Positions 48,209 through 58,249 of a DNA stretch of 64,000 nt are shown piece after piece. The notes under the pieces are model-generated. The model saw nothing but the letters and a program-made list of their open reading frames with translations, searched no databases and was not told where the DNA came from. This stretch comes from Gemmatimonadaceae bacterium (lineage in GTDB: Bacteria > Gemmatimonadota > Gemmatimonadetes > Gemmatimonadales > Gemmatimonadaceae): the NCBI GenBank assembly GCA_011525845.1, contig WYBP01000018.1:124001-188000 (forward strand), given 5' to 3'. The position numbers were made by a program, and so were the translations under genes. The stretch's first letter is position 1, and each line of letters begins with the position of its first letter.

Positions 48209-49885
48209 GTGACTGCGCCCGCCACGACGCCCATTGCCGGCCCCCTCGACGCGCTCATCGCGCGGCGCCGGACCTTCGCGATCATCTCGCACCCGGACGC
48301 CGGCAAGACGACGCTCACCGAGAAGCTCCTTCTATATGGTGGCGCCATCCACCAGGCGGGGGCGGTGAAGGCGCGCAAGTCGCAGCGTCACGCCACCTCC
48401 GACTGGATGGCGCTCGAGCAGGAGCGCGGCATCTCCGTCACCTCCTCGGTCCTCCAGTTCGAGTACCTCGGCTACCAGGTGAACCTCCTCGACACCCCGG
48501 GTCACCAGGATTTCGGCGAGGACACCTTCCGCACCCTCGTCGCCGCGGACAGCGCCGTGATGCTCCTCGACAACCGCAAGGGCGTCGAGGAACGCACGCG
48601 ACAGCTCTTCGACGTCTGCCGCCGACGGCGGATGCCGATCTTCACCGTGGTGAACAAGTGCGACCGCGTCGGTGAGGACCCGCTCAAGCTCGTCAGCGAT
48701 CTCGAGGCCGAACTCGGCATCACCGCGGTCGCCGCGCACTGGCCGATCCACATGGACTCGGCGGAGCACGGCACCGTGTTCGTCGGCGTGTACGACCGCC
48801 TGCACACCCGCGCCTACCTCTTCGAGCGCGGCACGCACCACGGGGCCAAGCGCGTGGCCACCGCCACCCTCGACGTCTCCGGACCCTCGGACCCGCAGAT
48901 CACCAAGGCGCTCGGCGGCGGCGAGGCCGCCGTGTCCGCGGTCGCCAAGCTCGCGCACGACGTCGAGCTCCTCGACATGGCCGGGCACGAGTTCGACCCC
49001 ACGGCCATCCTTGCCGGCGAGCAGACGCCCGTCTTCTTCGCCTCCGCGCTCACGAACTTCGGGGTGGAGCCCTTCCTCGAGGCCTTCCTCCCGCTCGCCC
49101 CGTCGCCGGTGGCGCGCGAGAGCAGCGCCGGGCCGGTCGCGCCCGGACTCAGCGCGTTCACGGCATTCGTGTTCAAGGTGCAGGCGAACATGGACCCGCG
49201 GCACCGCGACCGCGTCGCCTTCCTGCGCGTCTGCTCGGGGCGGTACGCCGCGGGGCTCGACGTCACGCACGTGCGCACCGGAAAGAGCTTCAAGCTCGCG
49301 CCGCCGCAGCAGTTCATGGGGCGCGAGCGGGCGTTCGCCGAGGAGGCGCTGCCGGGGGACGTGGTGGGCGTGCATGACCGCGGCCTCCTCAGGATCGGGG
49401 ACACGCTGGCCACCGAGGACGCCCCGCGCGACGCGGAGGGGAAGCTCCTGGCCTACGTCGGCATCCCGCGGTTCGCGCCGGAGCACTTCGCGCGCATCCT
49501 CTCGAAGGATCCGCTCCGACGGAAGGCGCTCGACAAGGGGCTCCGGGAGCTGACCGAGGAGGGGGCGGCGCAGGTGTTCTTCGCCGAGTCGCAGATGGGT
49601 CCCGTGCCGATCGTCGGGGCGGTGGGGTTGCTCCAGTTCGACGTGATGGTGCACCGGCTCGAGAACGAGTACGGCGCCCCCTGCTCGCTGGAGAACCTCC
49701 CCTTCCGCTATCCACGCTGGGTCACGGGCCCTGCGGAGGAGATCCAGCGCCTCGGCGAGTCGCAGGACCTCACGCTCCTCTACGACGCGAAGAACCATCC
49801 GGTGCTGCTCTTCCGGGACGAATGGCGCCTCCGGTGGGCCACCGAGCGTCACACGGCGCTGACCTTCCACGAGGCGGCACCCTAG
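48209..49885 (+). CDS. prfC: Peptide chain release factor 3
   Basis: 558 residues from GTG at 48209. GTPase motifs: SHPDAGKTTLTEK (G1), LDTPGHQDFGEDT (G3) and NKCD (G4); RF3-specific HATSDWMALEQERGIS region; C-terminal beta domains with FAESQMGPVPIVGAVGLLQFDV. It recycles RF1 and RF2 from the ribosome after peptide release. Slightly longer than E. coli RF3 (529). Stands as a single-gene unit. Confidence 0.95.
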   Translation: MTAPATTPIAGPLDALIARRRTFAIISHPDAGKTTLTEKLLLYGGAIHQAGAVKARKSQRHATSDWMALEQERGISVTSSVLQFEYLGYQVNLLDTPGHQDFGEDTFRTLVAADSAVMLLDNRKGVEERTRQLFDVCRRRRMPIFTVVNKCDRVGEDPLKLVSDLEAELGITAVAAHWPIHMDSAEHGTVFVGVYDRLHTRAYLFERGTHHGAKRVATATLDVSGPSDPQITKALGGGEAAVSAVAKLAHDVELLDMAGHEFDPTAILAGEQTPVFFASALTNFGVEPFLEAFLPLAPSPVARESSAGPVAPGLSAFTAFVFKVQANMDPRHRDRVAFLRVCSGRYAAGLDVTHVRTGKSFKLAPPQQFMGRERAFAEEALPGDVVGVHDRGLLRIGDTLATEDAPRDAEGKLLAYVGIPRFAPEHFARILSKDPLRRKALDKGLRELTEEGAAQVFFAESQMGPVPIVGAVGLLQFDVMVHRLENEYGAPCSLENLPFRYPRWVTGPAEEIQRLGESQDLTLLYDAKNHPVLLFRDEWRLRWATERHTALTFHEAAP

Positions 49886-49964: not shown

Positions 49965-51506
49965 ATGACCATCCAGAACGCCGTACGGACCGCCGTGACC
50001 ACTCCTGCCGTGCGTGCGCTCGCCGCGGTGGCGCTCGTCGCCGGGTCGAGCGTCGCCCTCCTCGCGCCGGCCGCCGGCGCGCAACAGGCGAAGCTCCCCG
50101 CCATCACCCCGCTCACCCCGATCCTCGCGCGCTCCACCGAGCCGATGGGCGCGGTCTCGACGATCGCGACGCTCCCGGGCGGCAAGGTGCTCGTGAACGA
50201 CATCCTCGGCCGGCGCGTGGTGCTCTTCGACTCCACGCTCACGCTGGTGGGCGTGGTGGCCGACTCCACGGGTGCGACGGCGAACGCCTACGGCGCGCGG
50301 GGTGGCGGACTGCTGAGCTACCAGGGTGACTCGGCGATGTTCGTCGATCCGGCGTCGCTGACCATGATGGCCATCACCCCCGCCGGGCAGCTCGCCGGGG
50401 TGAAGGCGGTCCCGCGCGCGAACGACATCAGCTTCCTGGTGGGCGGACCCAACGGCCGTCCCGGCTTCGACCTGCAGGGCAGGCTCATCTACCGCGGGAT
50501 GGCGCGGGGCCGGCCGGCACCGGCGGATGCGCGCCCAGCGTTCGGCAACTTCGTGATGCCGCAGCAGCCGGACTCCGCGCCGGTGGTCCGGGTGGACCCG
50601 GCCACGAGAAAGCTCGACACCCTCGCGATGTTCAAGATCCCGAAGGTGGACATCAACATCTCGCAGGGGAACGACGGCCGGATCAGCGTGCAGACGAAGA
50701 TCCACCCGCTGCCGACGACGGACGACTGGGCGCTGCTCAGCGACGGCACGATCGCCATCGTGCGCGGGCACGACTTCCACGTGGACTGGGTGGACGCGAA
50801 CAAGGGAGTCACGTCGTCGCCGAAGATCCCGTTCGAGTGGCAGCGGCTCTCGGACGAGGACAAGGAGTTCCTCGTCGACAGCGCGCGCACGGCGATGGAG
50901 AAGGCGCGCGACGAGGCGATGCGGATGATGAACAGCGCCGGGGGTCCGGCGGCGTTCGTCGCCAGCGGCGGGGCCGAGCGGATGATGGTGATGGGCGACT
51001 TCGGCGGTGGCGGGCCTCCGCCGCGCGCCGCGGCACCGGCGGCGGGTGCGACGCCGCCCGCCGGCGGCACTGCAGGTGGCACTGCAGGTGGCACTGCCGC
51101 ATCGTCCGGTGCGGCCGGCGGCGCGGGTGCGGCTTCGGCGGGTTCGTCGGCCACCGGGACGCCTCCCGCGCGGGGTGGCCAGGGCGGAGGCCCGGGGGGC
51201 GCGGGTGGCTTCCCGATCCCGGCGATCAACATGGTGCCGGCGAGCGAGCTCCCGGACTATCGCCCGCCCTTCGGCCAGCAGGCCTCGCTCGGGGACCTCG
51301 ACAACAACCTCTGGGTGCGCACCTCGGCCCCGGTGGGTGATGCGGGGCCCGTGTACTTCGTGATCGCCAAGGGAGGGGAGGTGCTCGCCCGCGTGCAGGC
51401 CCCGCAGGGGCGCATCGTCGTCGGGTTCGGGAAGGGAGGGCTCGTCTACCTCGCGTTCCGCGATGCCGAGGGGCGTTCGTACCTGGAGTCGGCACGCTGG
51501 AAGTAG
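49965..51506 (+). CDS. Secreted beta-propeller-like protein A, paralogue of 55380-56909
   Basis: 513 residues from ATG at 49965. Signal peptide ends AGAQQ. Repeated beta-rich segments such as GGKVLVNDILGRRVVLFDST and ATRKLDTLAMFKIPKVD suggest six-bladed (NHL-like) propeller blades. A Gly/Ala/Pro-rich low-complexity insert (about residues 345-425) splits the propeller; then comes NMVPASELPDYRPPFGQQA and a last blade. Nearly every segment outside the insert matches the gene at 55380. It precedes a TonB-dependent receptor. Function unknown; a periplasmic binding or sensing partner of the receptor is plausible. Confidence 0.82.
   Translation: MTIQNAVRTAVTTPAVRALAAVALVAGSSVALLAPAAGAQQAKLPAITPLTPILARSTEPMGAVSTIATLPGGKVLVNDILGRRVVLFDSTLTLVGVVADSTGATANAYGARGGGLLSYQGDSAMFVDPASLTMMAITPAGQLAGVKAVPRANDISFLVGGPNGRPGFDLQGRLIYRGMARGRPAPADARPAFGNFVMPQQPDSAPVVRVDPATRKLDTLAMFKIPKVDINISQGNDGRISVQTKIHPLPTTDDWALLSDGTIAIVRGHDFHVDWVDANKGVTSSPKIPFEWQRLSDEDKEFLVDSARTAMEKARDEAMRMMNSAGGPAAFVASGGAERMMVMGDFGGGGPPPRAAAPAAGATPPAGGTAGGTAGGTAASSGAAGGAGAASAGSSATGTPPARGGQGGGPGGAGGFPIPAINMVPASELPDYRPPFGQQASLGDLDNNLWVRTSAPVGDAGPVYFVIAKGGEVLARVQAPQGRIVVGFGKGGLVYLAFRDAEGRSYLESARWK
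51066..51097 (+). repeat. 12-bp tandem repeat in the Gly/Ala-rich insert
   Basis: GGCACTGCAGGT occurs twice in tandem and begins a third time, encoding GTAG units. In frame, so copy-number change would lengthen the linker by four residues per unit. Confidence 0.75.
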
Positions 51507-51527
51507 CGCGCTGACCACGTTCGGCCC

Positions 51528-51561
51528 GACCCCCACGTTCCGCTAACGCGACGTGGGGGTC
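51528..51561 (+). terminator. Hairpin between propeller A and the receptor
   Basis: GACCCCCACGT and its exact complement enclose a 12-base loop. It follows the propeller A stop by 21 bases. No U-run; the receptor promoter comes right after it. Confidence 0.6.
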
Positions 51562-51566
51562 CGGCG

Positions 51567-51572
51567 TATACC
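51567..51572 (+). promoter_or_regulatory. Possible -10 element TATACC of the receptor gene
   Basis: TATACC 53 bases before the GTG at 51625, directly downstream of the hairpin. No clear -35 hexamer, so the assignment is tentative. Confidence 0.3.
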
Positions 51573-51624
51573 ATGGGCGAGCGGGAAGGACCGGTCGCCC
51601 CAACTCTGTCACCGGATCCGATTC

Positions 51625-54600
51625 GTGCTGCTCCGCCGCCTGGTCATCCTCGTTGGACTCGTCGCACTGCTCCTTCCGGCCGCCCCGGCTGCGGCGCAGG
51701 ACGGCGCGGACATCATCCGCGGCCGCGTGACGGGTCCCGACGGCGCGCCGATCCTCGGCGTGATCGTCACCGCGACCTCCGTGAGCGGGAACGTAAGCCG
51801 GCGGGCGCGCACGGGGAACGACGGACGCTTCACCATCGCCTTCCCGGGCGGCGACGGCGACTACTTCGTGAGCTACCAGGCGATCGGCTACGCGCCGCGC
51901 CGGTTCCAGGTGAAGCGCACCGCCGACCAGGAGATCCTGGTGGCGGACGCGCGCCTCGCGATCGCCGCGCAGCAGCTCGACACCGTGCAGATCGCCGGCG
52001 AGCGGAACCGGGTGAACCGCAACCAGAACCCGGCGGACATCAGCGGCACCGAGCGCAACGTGAACGCCAGCGCGCTCTCGGCCGAGCAGCAGGGCGACCT
52101 CGCGGCGATGGCCGCGTCCCTTCCGGGGGTGCAGTTCATCCCGGGCGCGGACGGCGATCCGTCGGGCTTCTCCGTCTTCGGCCTCACCGCGGACCAGAAC
52201 TCGACGACGATCAACGGACTCAGCTCGGACGCGACGAACCTCCCGCGCGACGCGGCGATCTCGAGCTCGCTCGTAACCTCGCCGTACGACGTGAGCCGCG
52301 GCGGCTTCAGCGGCGGGCAGTTCAACATCCGGAGCCGCTCCGGGTCGAACTACCTCACGCGCTCCTCGAGCCTCAACCTCGATTCGCCGGCGCTCCAGTG
52401 GACGGACCCGGCGGGGCGCGCGCTCGGGCAGGAGTACTCCAACGCCTCGCTCGGCGCCGGGATCAGCGGCCCGATCAAGTTCGACGAGTCGTTCTACAAC
52501 ATCTCGCTCCAGGCGGGGCGGCGGGCCAACGACCTGCAGACGTTGCTCAACACGAGCGCGCTCGGCCTGCAGACGTCGGGCGTCGCGCAGGACTCGGTGA
52601 CGCGCCTCCTCTCGCTCCTCTCGGCGGCGGGGATCCCCGCCACCGTGCGCGGGATCCCGGCGGACCGCACGAACGACAACCTCCTGCTCTTCGGTTCGCT
52701 CGATTGGGCGCCGACCTCGTCCCTCTCGGGGGTGGCGTACAACATCGCGCTCACGGGCAGCGTGACCAAGCAGTCGCCGGTCTCGAGCCTCTCCAACCAG
52801 CTCCCCGCCTACTCGGGGGAGCGGACGAACTTCAGCGGCGGCATCTCGGGGCGGCACACGAACTTCTACGGCGTGTTCCTGAGCGAGACCTCGGTGGGCG
52901 CGAGCGTCTCGAACAACGACGCGGACCCCTACCTCGCCCTGCCCGCGGGCACGGTCCGGATCAACTCCACCTTCGCCGACGGCACGAGCGGCGTGACGAA
53001 CATCGCGTTCGGCGGGAGCCCGAACCTGAGCACGACGCAGGGGTCGAGCACGCTCTCGTTCCGGAACCAGCTCTCCTGGTTCAGCCTCAACAACAGGCAT
53101 CGGCTCAAGTCCACGCTGGAGCTCCGGCGCGACGGCTACTCCACGGACCAGACCGTGAACTCGCTCGGCACCTTCCGGTTCAACTCGCTGGCGGACCTCG
53201 AGGCGAACGCGCCCGTGTCGTTCACGCGCGTGCTGCAGGACCGCTCGCGCTCGGGGAGCCAGTGGATCGCCGGCGCCTCCATCGGCGACGCCTGGCGGAA
53301 GTCGAACGACTTCCAGCTCCAGTACGGGGTGCGCGTGGACGCCAACCGCTTCGACGACCGGCCGGACTACAACCCGGCGGTCACCGCGGCGTTCGGCGTC
53401 CGGAACGACGTGCTCCCGAACAAGGTCTCGGTGAGCCCGCGCGTCGGCTTCTCGTGGACGTACGGGACCGCACCGCAGATCTCCGGGTTCGAGGGCGCGG
53501 TGCGCGGGCCCCGGGCGGTGGTGCGCGGCGGCGTCGGTGTCTTCCAGAACTCTCCCCAGGCGCGCCTCACCAGCGGCGCGATCGACAACACGGGACTCCC
53601 CGGCTCGTCACAGAACCTCGCCTGCACCGGGAGTGCGGTGCCGGTGCCCGACTGGGCCACCTACGGGCTCGACCTCTCCTCCATCCCGACGCTCTGCGCG
53701 AACGGGACCACCGGCACGCCCTTCAACAACACGACGCCGAACGTCACGCTCTTCGCCGACGACTACCAGCTGCAGCGCTCGATCCGCTCCAACCTCCAGT
53801 GGAGCGGCTCGATCCTCGACAACCGGTTCACGACGACGGCCGAGGTCACCTATTCGATGAACCAGCACCAGCCGGGCGCGGTGGACCTGAACTTCAACCC
53901 CGTCCAGCGTTTCGCGCTGGCCGAGGAAGGGGGGCGCCCGGTGTACGCGCTCGCGTCGAGCATCACGCCGGCCACGGGCACGGTGGCGCCGGGGGCGGCG
54001 CGGCTCTCGCCGCAGTTCGCCCGCGTGTCGCAGCAGCGCTCCGACCTCCTGGGCGAGAGCCGCCAGTTCTCGCTCCGCCTCTCGCCGTCGCGCTTCAGCA
54101 CGAACCTCACCTGGAACGCGAGCTACGTGTACTCCAACGTGATCGAGCAGGTGCGCGGCTTCCAGAACACCGCGGGCAACCCGCTGCTGGTGGAGTGGGC
54201 CCGCGGCGCCTTCGACTCGCGCCACCAGCTCAGCTACAACCTCGGCTACAACTTCGGCGACATGGTGCGGGTGAACTGGTCCGGGAGCTTCCGCTCCGGC
54301 CGGCCCTACACCCCCGTCGTCTCCGGAGACGTGAACGGCGACGGCTACACGAACGACCGCGCCTTCGTCTTCGACCCTGCGACCGCGACGGACCCGGCGC
54401 TGGCGAGTGCGATGTCCGCACTCCTCTCCTCCACGAGCGAGGGCGCCCGCAAGTGCCTGCGCTCCCAGCTGGGCGAGCTCGCGGCGCGCAACAGCTGCGA
54501 GGCGCCCTGGACGCAGTCGGCGGTGCTCTCGATCTCGCTCAACCCGCTGAAGTTCCGCCTGCCGCAGCGCGCCACGCTCTCGTTCAACGTCTCCAACCCG

Positions 54601-55347
54601 CTCGGCGCCGCCGACCTGCTCCTCCACGGCGAGGGGAGGATCAAGGGGTGGGGCCAGCAGCGCGTGCCCGATGCGACGCTGCTCTACGTGCGCGGCTTCG
54701 ACGCCGGGAACCAGCGCTTCCTCTATGACGTCAACCCGCGCTTCGGCAACACGGACCAGCAGCTCTCGGCCATCCGCGCGCCGGTGACCATCACGGCGCA
54801 GATCCGCTTCGACCTCGGGCCGACGCGGGAGCGGCAGCTCCTGATCCAGTCGCTCGACCGCGGGCGCATCCACCAGGGCTCCAAGGCGCCGGAGGCGCAG
54901 CTCAAGGCGATGTACGGGAGCGCCGGCCTGCCGAACCCGATGGCGACCATCCTCCGCTCGGCCGACACGCTCAACCTCACCACCCAGCAGGCGGACAGCC
55001 TCGCGACGTGGAACCGCTGGTACCTCGTGCGCCTCGACTCGATCTGGTCGCCGCTGGTGAAGGAGCTGGCGGCGCTGCCCAACGCGTACGACCGCGATGC
55101 GGTCTTCGCCAAGTACACCAAGGCGCGGCAGGGCTCGGTGGACCTGCTCACCGGGCTCTCCGTCCGGATGAACGCGCTCCTCACCAAGGAACAGATCCGC
55201 AAGCTGCCGCAGTTCATCGCGGTGTACCTCGACAAGCGCTATCTCGCGTCCATCCGCAACGGCACGGCCGGCAGCGGATTCGGGTTGCCCGGCGGGTTCG
55301 ACGTCGGCGCGATCCGGGGCGGGGGCGGCACCTTCATCGCGCGCTGA
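51625..55347 (+). CDS. Giant TonB-dependent receptor with carboxypeptidase-regulatory-like domain and C-terminal helical tail
   Basis: 1240 residues from GTG at 51625. Signal peptide to AAAQD, then a carboxypeptidase-regulatory-like beta sandwich (DIIRGRVTGPDGAPILGVIV), a plug domain (LPGVQFIPGADGDPSGFSVFG, DQNSTTINGL) and a long barrel with FRSGRPYTPV and DVNGDGYTNDRAF, features of SusC/CarbopepD-reg receptors. The barrel ends near ITAQIRFDLG; about 170 further residues follow, mostly helical with LTxxQ-like LNLTTQQADSL and LLTKEQIRKLP. Flanked by paralogous propeller genes. No TonB box is obvious. Substrate unknown. Confidence 0.85.
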   Translation: MLLRRLVILVGLVALLLPAAPAAAQDGADIIRGRVTGPDGAPILGVIVTATSVSGNVSRRARTGNDGRFTIAFPGGDGDYFVSYQAIGYAPRRFQVKRTADQEILVADARLAIAAQQLDTVQIAGERNRVNRNQNPADISGTERNVNASALSAEQQGDLAAMAASLPGVQFIPGADGDPSGFSVFGLTADQNSTTINGLSSDATNLPRDAAISSSLVTSPYDVSRGGFSGGQFNIRSRSGSNYLTRSSSLNLDSPALQWTDPAGRALGQEYSNASLGAGISGPIKFDESFYNISLQAGRRANDLQTLLNTSALGLQTSGVAQDSVTRLLSLLSAAGIPATVRGIPADRTNDNLLLFGSLDWAPTSSLSGVAYNIALTGSVTKQSPVSSLSNQLPAYSGERTNFSGGISGRHTNFYGVFLSETSVGASVSNNDADPYLALPAGTVRINSTFADGTSGVTNIAFGGSPNLSTTQGSSTLSFRNQLSWFSLNNRHRLKSTLELRRDGYSTDQTVNSLGTFRFNSLADLEANAPVSFTRVLQDRSRSGSQWIAGASIGDAWRKSNDFQLQYGVRVDANRFDDRPDYNPAVTAAFGVRNDVLPNKVSVSPRVGFSWTYGTAPQISGFEGAVRGPRAVVRGGVGVFQNSPQARLTSGAIDNTGLPGSSQNLACTGSAVPVPDWATYGLDLSSIPTLCANGTTGTPFNNTTPNVTLFADDYQLQRSIRSNLQWSGSILDNRFTTTAEVTYSMNQHQPGAVDLNFNPVQRFALAEEGGRPVYALASSITPATGTVAPGAARLSPQFARVSQQRSDLLGESRQFSLRLSPSRFSTNLTWNASYVYSNVIEQVRGFQNTAGNPLLVEWARGAFDSRHQLSYNLGYNFGDMVRVNWSGSFRSGRPYTPVVSGDVNGDGYTNDRAFVFDPATATDPALASAMSALLSSTSEGARKCLRSQLGELAARNSCEAPWTQSAVLSISLNPLKFRLPQRATLSFNVSNPLGAADLLLHGEGRIKGWGQQRVPDATLLYVRGFDAGNQRFLYDVNPRFGNTDQQLSAIRAPVTITAQIRFDLGPTRERQLLIQSLDRGRIHQGSKAPEAQLKAMYGSAGLPNPMATILRSADTLNLTTQQADSLATWNRWYLVRLDSIWSPLVKELAALPNAYDRDAVFAKYTKARQGSVDLLTGLSVRMNALLTKEQIRKLPQFIAVYLDKRYLASIRNGTAGSGFGLPGGFDVGAIRGGGGTFIAR

Positions 55348-55379
55348 GCGGCGCGCGACCACGGCCACCGGCACCACTC

Positions 55380-56909
55380 ATGACCACCGACCTCAAGCAT
55401 CGCCCACGCCTCCCGGCCCTCCGGGGCGGCCACGTCGCGGCGTCACGCGCCACGCTGGCGGCGCTCGCCGCCCTGCTCGTGCTCGGGGCCGCGGCCGTGC
55501 CGGCCGCCGCGCAGAACCAGGTGAAGGCACCGCCGGTGCGGCCGATCGGTCCCGTGCTCTCGCGCTCCGCTGAGCCCCTCGGCGCCGTCTCGACCGTCCT
55601 CCCGCTGCCGGGAGGGAAGGTGCTCGTGAACGACATCCTGCACCGCCGCGTCGTGATGTTCGACTCGACGCTCACCGAGGTGCGGGTGATCGCGGACTCG
55701 ACGAGCGCGACGGCGAACGCCTACGGCGCGCGCGGCGGTGGCCTGCTCTCCTACCACGGCGACTCGGCGCTCTTCATCGACCCGGCCTCGCTCTCGATGA
55801 TGGTCGTGAATGCGAATGGGGAGCTGGCCGGGGTGCGCGCGGTGCCGCGCGCGACGGAGATCGGGCTGCTGGTCGGTGGTCCGAACGGCCGGCCGGGGTT
55901 CGATGGCGAAGGACGGATGATCTATCGCGGGCAGGCGCGCGCGCGGCCGGCGGCCCAGGCTGCGGCGGCGCGGGCGGGCGCGCGCGCGGGTGGCGGCGGC
56001 GCGGGCGGCGGCCCGGGGGGTGGGAACTTCGCCCTGCAGCCCGACTCCGCTCCGATCGTGCGCGTCGACCTGCGCACGCGGAAGCTAGATACGCTCGCGA
56101 TGATCAAGATCCCCCGCGTGGACGTGCGGGTCACCCAGGGCGCCGACGGCCGCCCGAACATCAGCACGACGATCAACCCGCTCCCCACCACCGACGACTG
56201 GGCGCTGATGAGCGACGGGACGGTGGCGGTCGTGCGCGGCCACGACTTCCACGTGGACTGGATCGCCGCCGACGGGTCCACGAGCTCCTCGCCCAAGATC
56301 CTCTTCGAGTGGCAGCGCCTGAGCGATGAGGACAAGGAGATGATCATCGACAGCGCGCGCACGGCGCTGGAGCGCCGGCGCGCCGAGGCGGATCGCCTCA
56401 CCGGAGGACGGGGCGGGATCGCCGCGGTCCTGGGCGGCGAGGCCGGTGCCGGCCCCGGGGGCGGTGGCGCGCTGGGCGGCGGTCCCGGGGGCGGTGGCCG
56501 GGGCGCCGCAGGCGGGTTCGGCGGCGCGGGCGGCGGCCAGCGCGGCGGCGGGGCGGGGGGTGGCGAGCCGAACCCGCAGCGCCGTGGGGACGGCCCCGGC
56601 GGGGGCGAGGGTCCGCGTGCACCGACCATCAACATGGTGTCCCCGAGCGATCTCCCGGACTACCGCCCGCCGTTCGGCCAGCAGGCCGCGCTCGGCGATG
56701 CGGACGGCCTCCTCTGGGTCCGCTCCAGCGCGCCCGTGGGCGAGGGCGGGCCGATCTACTACGTGATCAGCCGCCAGAACGAGGTGGTGGACCGCATCCA
56801 GCTCCCGCAGGGGCGCATGATCGCGGGGTTCGGGAAGGGAGGCGTGGTGTACATGGCCTTCCGCGACACCGAGGGGAACAACCGGGTGGAGACGGCGCGC
56901 TGGAAGTGA
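55380..56909 (+). CDS. Secreted beta-propeller-like protein B, paralogue of 49965-51506
   Basis: 509 residues from ATG at 55380, 32 bases after the receptor stop. Signal peptide ending AAAQN. It matches protein A through most of its length (for example KVLVNDIL, STSATANAYGARGGGLLSY, PLPTTDDWAL, VRGHDFHVDW, FEWQRLSDEDKE, LPDYRPPFGQQAALGD and the final ARWK). The differences are two Gly-rich inserts: a short one near residue 190 and a long one near 355-420, nearly pure Gly/Ala/Arg. It is likely the product of a tandem duplication around the receptor gene. Confidence 0.82.
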   Translation: MTTDLKHRPRLPALRGGHVAASRATLAALAALLVLGAAAVPAAAQNQVKAPPVRPIGPVLSRSAEPLGAVSTVLPLPGGKVLVNDILHRRVVMFDSTLTEVRVIADSTSATANAYGARGGGLLSYHGDSALFIDPASLSMMVVNANGELAGVRAVPRATEIGLLVGGPNGRPGFDGEGRMIYRGQARARPAAQAAAARAGARAGGGGAGGGPGGGNFALQPDSAPIVRVDLRTRKLDTLAMIKIPRVDVRVTQGADGRPNISTTINPLPTTDDWALMSDGTVAVVRGHDFHVDWIAADGSTSSSPKILFEWQRLSDEDKEMIIDSARTALERRRAEADRLTGGRGGIAAVLGGEAGAGPGGGGALGGGPGGGGRGAAGGFGGAGGGQRGGGAGGGEPNPQRRGDGPGGGEGPRAPTINMVSPSDLPDYRPPFGQQAALGDADGLLWVRSSAPVGEGGPIYYVISRQNEVVDRIQLPQGRMIAGFGKGGVVYMAFRDTEGNNRVETARWK

Positions 56910-56923
56910 GCCGGGGCTGAGGG

Positions 56924-58249
56924 CTAGCCCGCGATCTCCGCGATCGCGATGTCCCGCCCCCCCTTCCGCACCAGCAGCCACCGTCCGCGCACCGCGTCCG
57001 CGCGCGGGACGCCCGTGGCGTCGGACGGGAGCTTCGCGCCGTTCACCGACACCGCGCCCTGCTGCACCAGCTTGCGCGCCGCGGTCTTCGAGAGCTTGAA
57101 GGCCTCCTCCAGCACCGCGACCACGTCGAGCGTGCCGCCGGACGCCGGGAGCCGCACGGACGGCATCTCGGCGGCGAGGGTCGCGAACACCTCGTCGCTG
57201 AGCGCGTTGGCGTCCGCCTTCTTGTCGAACACCGTATCCGAGACGGAGCGCGCGAGCGCCGCCGCCTCGGTGCCGTGGATCATCGTGGTGACCTCGAGCG
57301 CGAGACGCTTCTGGGCGCCGCGCAGGTGCGGTGCGGCGGCGTGCGCGGCCTCTAGCGCCTCGATCGCGTCGCGGTCGAGCATGGTGAAGGTGCGCAGGAG
57401 CCGCCCGACCTCGCTGTCGTCCGCGTTCACCCAGAACTGGTAGAACTGGTACGGGCTGGTGCGCGTGGCATCGAGCCAGACGGCCCCGCCCTCCGTCTTG
57501 CCGAACTTCTTCCCGCTGGCGTCGGTGAGGAGCGGGAAGGTCAGTCCGTGGGCCTCGCCGCGCGCCGCACGCCGGATCAGTTCGGTGCCGGCCGTGATGT
57601 TCCCCCACTGGTCGCTCCCGCCGAGCTGCAGGGTGACGCCGTCGTGCTGGAACATCTGCAGGAAGTCGTGCGCCTGGAGGAGCATGTACGAGAACTCCGT
57701 GAAGGAGATCCCGCCGTCGAGCCGGGACTTCACGGAGTCCTTCTGCATCATCCAGTTCACGGTGAAGTGCTTCCCCGTGTCGCGCAGGAAGTCGATCAAC
57801 CGGAGCGGGGAGAGCCAGTCGGCGTTGTTGCGGAAGATCACGCGCGCCCCGGCCTCGCGGGCGCCGGTGCCCTCGCCGTAGCCGGCCCCGAGGGCGTTCT
57901 GGACCACGCGCCGGATCTGCGCCTCGATCAGCGCGGCGTTCGCGCGGATCTCGTCGGCCGAGCGGATGGGGCGCTCCTCGGACTTCCCGCTGGGGTCGCC
58001 GATCATCGCCGTGCCGCCCCCGACCAGCGCGACCGCCTGGTGCCCCGCGCGCGCGAGGCGCACGAGGCCGAGGATGGAGACGAGGTTGCCGACGTGGAGG
58101 CTCTCGGCGGTGGGGTCGAACCCGCAGTAGCCGCGCACGAGCCCCTTCGCGAGCGCGTCGCCGCATCCCTCGGTCTGCTGGTGGAGCAACCCACGCCACT
58201 CGAGTTCCTCGAGCAGCGGCCGTGAACCGGGGGCGGGAACGATCGTCAT
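56924..58249 (-). CDS. tyrS: Tyrosyl-tRNA synthetase
   Basis: 441 residues from ATG at 58249. The HIGH motif is HVGN (52-55), the KMSKS motif is KFGKT, YCGFDPTAESLHVGN and the QLGGSDQWGNI motif identify the class I tyrosine enzyme, and a C-terminal S4 domain (KLVQQGAVSVNG) binds tRNA. TACCTT ends exactly 6 bases before the ATG. Convergent with propeller B, divergent from the penicillin-binding protein gene. Confidence 0.96.
   Translation of the reverse strand: MTIVPAPGSRPLLEELEWRGLLHQQTEGCGDALAKGLVRGYCGFDPTAESLHVGNLVSILGLVRLARAGHQAVALVGGGTAMIGDPSGKSEERPIRSADEIRANAALIEAQIRRVVQNALGAGYGEGTGAREAGARVIFRNNADWLSPLRLIDFLRDTGKHFTVNWMMQKDSVKSRLDGGISFTEFSYMLLQAHDFLQMFQHDGVTLQLGGSDQWGNITAGTELIRRAARGEAHGLTFPLLTDASGKKFGKTEGGAVWLDATRTSPYQFYQFWVNADDSEVGRLLRTFTMLDRDAIEALEAAHAAAPHLRGAQKRLALEVTTMIHGTEAAALARSVSDTVFDKKADANALSDEVFATLAAEMPSVRLPASGGTLDVVAVLEEAFKLSKTAARKLVQQGAVSVNGAKLPSDATGVPRADAVRGRWLLVRKGGRDIAIAEIAG

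Follow-up and report, generated by a model that had tools for sequence, protein, structure and literature searches.

A conserved receptor–propeller gene pair in Gemmatimonadota and its possible role at the outer membrane

Gene content of the locus

The locus was analyzed within the window, i.e., the whole 64,000-nucleotide stretch, which belongs to a 3.6 Mb Gemmatimonadaceae genome (G000, contig C13). On the plus strand, the RF3 gene (48209–49885) is followed by a propeller gene (P1, 49965–51506, 513 aa), a TonB-dependent receptor gene (R, 51625–55347, 1240 aa from a GTG start) and a second propeller gene (P2, 55380–56909, 509 aa), after which a convergent gene interpreted as encoding tyrosyl-tRNA synthetase (TyrRS) begins at 56924. 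An alternative GTG at 51553 would extend R to 1264 aa; the P1–R gap thus measures 46–118 bp, depending on the start chosen, and the R–P2 gap 32 bp. The original prediction of two similar propellers flanking a receptor on one strand with short gaps is borne out by these three intact genes. The alignment of P1 and P2 also agrees with its statement that the copies differ mainly in Gly-rich inserts, their 308-residue core being 64% identical (E 6e-131). Compared with their counterparts in genome G007, a congener, both propellers are under purifying selection (dN/dS 0.22 and 0.27 by a crude NG86 estimate).

The gap between P1 and R contains a G+C-rich hairpin (51528–51561, plus strand; z −2.3, with 4 of 200 shuffles folding as well), and a similar one is found in the same gap of G007. 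It weakly suggests that P1 is separate from the R–P2 unit. Its candidacy as a terminator was dropped, since a consensus scan of the region returned neither a terminator nor a promoter, which leaves the hairpin only suggestive.

To characterize the propeller family (P), an AlphaFold2 model of P2 (ma8c3133c4d2e) was built on an alignment of 35 homologues. The model has a mean pLDDT of 79, with 267 residues at pLDDT of at least 90, and its Foldseek matches include Drp35, NHL domains, the designed Pizza6 and BtuG (8okv, E 2.9e-6). Foldseek and VIA-align together also point to DFPase, phytase and a propeller lactonase. The best VIA-align matches are the six-bladed NHL, Pizza6 and phytase folds (Z 13.7–16.6), led by the Brat NHL domain at Z 16.6. 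P is therefore probably a six-bladed β-propeller, the number of blades being taken from its closest structural matches, and the earlier, purely sequence-based guess of a propeller-like protein is upheld by the confident core of the model. When the P profile was searched against PDB sequences, nothing beyond weak hits to NHL proteins emerged (best E 0.035), and neither P1, P2 nor the homologue set has a credible Pfam or NCBIfam family. For the NCBIfam PQQ-associated propeller model, no match was obtained with P1 and P2 (threshold E 1) or with the 35 members (threshold E 0.1).

By visual inspection, both propellers begin with a Sec-type leader, and their sequences are devoid of cysteine; across the N-termini of 80 P genes, a single lipobox-like match was found and judged a chance event. 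Without a cysteine, P1 and P2 cannot be surface lipoproteins like SusD or BtuG, and this identity was ruled out. The residues invariant in the family (D85, D128, G178, D237, T238, P267, D272, W274, G280 and R286 in P2 numbering) look, by eye, like structural propeller repeats.

The receptor comprises a CarboxypepD_reg N-terminal domain (51715–51933, E 3.4e-13), a plug (52036–52233, E 1.1e-4) and an outer-membrane β-barrel (52696–54819) with an OMP_b-brl_4 match at 52696–54387 (E 6.3e-21). The Plug match scores 23.1 bits, 0.8 bits below the 23.9-bit cut-off, and the R profile additionally matches the TbpA plug region. R thus has the N-terminal domain, plug and barrel that define an Oar-type TonB-dependent receptor. 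A candidate TonB box, LDTVQI (51976–51993; family consensus LDTV), is proposed by position and resemblance only. The Ton system is present in the genome, with nine TonB_C and three ExbD matches over the cut-off.

Conservation of the pair across Gemmatimonadota

Among 79 retrieved propeller loci, the receptor lies directly upstream of the propeller in 64, namely 58 plain R–P pairs and six variants: RPP (one), RPPP' (two), RRRP (one) and edge-truncated P–R–P (two). Seven loci with available upstream sequence have no receptor, so that the partnership, though strong, has exceptions; the remaining loci are cut off by contig ends or display a partial cassette. Profile searches of the fetched loci, a collection separate from these 79, found the receptor followed by the propeller in nearly all of them, giving 62 R–P pairs whose profile edges lie a median of 75 bp apart. 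In a sample of 61 genomes, the same 25 carry both R-subfamily receptors and close homologues of P, while the other 36 carry neither, with no discordant case. The original prediction had named recurrent co-location of propeller and receptor in related genomes as a check, and these counts supply it. Distances in the R tree correlate with those in the P tree (r 0.86, against at most 0.27 in shuffles), and 37 of 59 splits are shared; part of this correlation is owed to shared species history.

The propeller-family loci from the genome collection are almost all from Gemmatimonadota, and the hosts of the pair belong to a single group of bacteria from soils and lakes. The flanking genes differ between genera, which indicates that R–P is conserved independently of its context. 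No neighbor family recurs in more than three of 79 downstream or 61 upstream neighbors, so this route to the substrate gave no candidate. In our reading, R and P form a dedicated outer-membrane module of two genes in Gemmatimonadaceae, restricted to the phylum.

The P–R–P arrangement had been proposed as a three-part system. As a general unit it was rejected on the locus layouts, the conserved unit being R–P, and P–R–P with RF3 directly upstream was seen only in the window species and G007. Members of the genus with a single pair show the order RF3–R–P–feoA–feoB–TyrRS, while the window and G007 read RF3–P–R–P–TyrRS. In the propeller tree, both window copies fall inside the genus, each beside the matching G007 copy with support of 100/100, which indicates that the extra copy, P1, stems from a duplication inside the genus. 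P1 may represent a second version of the propeller with altered specificity. Loss of the first receptor in an R–P–R–P tandem, such as that of locus L125 (G103:C53, 1763–12402), whose receptors form a sister pair in the receptor tree, would give P–R–P. Extra propellers also pile up beside the receptor elsewhere, as R–P–P, R–P–R–P or a single receptor with a tandem array of five P-family genes behind it (L044, G030:C26, 3151–13319).

Two further observations were made on the distribution of the family. Three genomes of the same genus assembled in few contigs (G005, G011 and G015) have neither R-subfamily receptors nor close homologues of P. On another contig of the window genome (L049, G000:C14, 9747–14505), a distant propeller homologue follows gyrA and is succeeded by genes for more secreted proteins resembling propellers and by a set of RND efflux genes.

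The C-terminal extension and tail of the receptor

The last barrel strand of R ends at 54819 (approximately ITAQIRFDLG), leaving some 175 residues, the first part of which is helical in the model. This helical extension (54820–55224) contains two LTxxQ motifs (54976–54990 and 55180–55194). Barrel termini of outer-membrane proteins face the periplasm, and the extension is therefore expected there. The Pfam LTXXQ family (PF07813) matches five of 21 receptor members, all weakly (best E 0.056). A structure search of the extension gave only noise-level hits (best Z 7.8; CnrX Z 5.6), and a PDB sequence search with it returned nothing useful. A CpxP/Spy-like module in this region is possible. The helical part is widespread in the receptor family, whether or not a propeller is present (receptors L165–L184); being shared with paralogues that have no propeller, it is not specific to P. 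Beside one unpartnered receptor, a small membrane-anchored protein with an LTALGLSDD motif (L169, 2717–3160) is encoded, which is possibly Spy/CpxP-like itself.

The C-terminal tail (55225–55344), which reads YLDKRYLASIRNGTAG...GGGGTFIAR and is a candidate docking site, shows a different pattern. Its motif, YLDxRYLASIRxGTxG, lies within the last 40 residues and is conserved in 63 of 67 partnered receptors vs. none of 19 unpartnered paralogues. Among receptors of the same family, the partnered ones form a single clade (support 100); tail and partnership therefore arose on the same branch, and their association is confounded by descent. The tail could accordingly be a clade marker unrelated to P.

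Related systems and possible roles

Partnerships between propellers and TonB-dependent transporters (TBDTs) are already known as such from BtuB–BtuG and XusA–XusB. BtuG of Bacteroides is a seven-bladed, cysteine-anchored surface lipoprotein that binds vitamin B12 and partners BtuB (PMC10404256), and XusB, a seven-bladed DUF4374 lipoprotein, binds siderophores and partners XusA (PMC13142918). The original prediction knew of no named system with such a layout; BtuG and XusB are named propeller partners, though both are seven-bladed surface lipoproteins. Like them, P is encoded next to its TBDT in the same locus, but it lacks the lipid-anchored cysteine signal, is six-bladed by model and, unlike XusB, has no credible family match, and R differs from BtuB in its CarboxypepD_reg domain and helical C-terminal extension. 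R–P thus departs from both systems in the anchor, the receptor architecture, the tail and, probably, the number of blades. In Acidobacteria and Gemmatimonadetes, xoxF3 clusters combine a YncE-type propeller with a TonB receptor (PMC10875860), partly in the same phylum as R–P; YncE is annotated as a PQQ-catabolism propeller, whereas P does not match the corresponding NCBIfam model. Oar of Myxococcus xanthus shares the CarboxypepD_reg, plug and barrel architecture of R and is required for secretion of the protease PopC from the periplasm; the part of the source consulted describes no propeller partner (PMC6434023), and R has the helical extension and tail in addition.

SusC and SusD likewise form a gene pair with the receptor first, but SusD is a helical surface lipoprotein and P a soluble propeller. 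No named R–P system of Gemmatimonadota was found in the full text of open papers, and as far as we found the pair itself is undescribed.

We tentatively favor, at somewhat less than an even chance, the reading that P works in soluble form in the periplasm, as a partner of R. R itself would be a TonB-dependent transporter that combines an Oar-type N-terminal domain with an unusual helical extension reaching into the periplasm after the barrel. P, exported by Sec, would remain there in soluble form, dock on the C-terminal extension and tail, and receive, hold or process what R brings in, as a partner on the periplasmic side rather than an extracellular lid. The computations establish that the pair exists, is conserved and arose once, that P folds as a propeller without features of a lipoprotein, and that the tail goes with partnered receptors. 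The periplasmic location of P is deduced only from the signal peptide read by eye; direct contact and hand-off of the substrate are likewise inferred.

Several other explanations were weighed. P might be an enzyme of the SMP-30, phytase or lactonase kind that works on the substrate once it has been imported into the periplasm and makes no contact with R, as its structural matches to Drp35, DFPase, phytase and a propeller lactonase would allow. The non-enzymatic NHL domains and Pizza6 share the six-bladed fold at similar Z, however, the invariant residues resemble structural repeats and no Pfam enzyme family scores above its cut-off in P; we consider this reading doubtful. P could instead sit at the cell surface, covering R as a lid or capturing its substrate, in the manner of BtuG on BtuB or XusB on XusA. 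Such lids do exist and BtuG is among the Foldseek matches of P, but six-bladed folds match better, no known surface-export signal was recognized, and the lack of a cysteine in P1 and P2 and of any credible lipobox in the 80 P genes tells against both this unlikely arrangement and the SusD-like extracellular role of the original prediction. Slightly less likely still is that R works as an Oar-like exporter with P as the cargo moved from the periplasm to the outside. The role of Oar in PopC secretion offers a precedent with the same N-terminal architecture; that architecture is all the two share, though, the same source reports it in 28% of TBDTs (PMC6434023), and a folded six-bladed propeller would be a large cargo.

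The position of R–P directly upstream of feoA–feoB in ten genomes of the genus would fit uptake of ferrous or ferric iron. A Fur-box-like palindrome, TGAGAAYNRTTCTCA, precedes feoA in these ten loci (L055–L064), but none precedes the receptor. The link to feoAB does not extend beyond the genus: feoB is not beside R–P in the other genera looked at, the R–P genomes G021, G022, G025, G029, G030, G035 and G036 have no feoB match, and the window species carries feoB on other contigs. An iron role drawn from this neighbor is weakened accordingly, and we consider it improbable.

Returning to the periplasmic partner of R, a further step can be envisaged, which we put forward as speculation that is rather unlikely to hold in full. 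R–P would then exemplify a phylum-specific form of TonB transport in which a soluble periplasmic propeller docks on the receptor's periplasmic tail and takes the substrate at the inner side of the barrel, while additional propeller copies act as exchangeable cartridges for specificity. The propeller and SusD partners of TonB transporters cited here are all outside and lipid-anchored. A 40-residue tail present only in propeller-bearing receptors provides a concrete test of the partnership.
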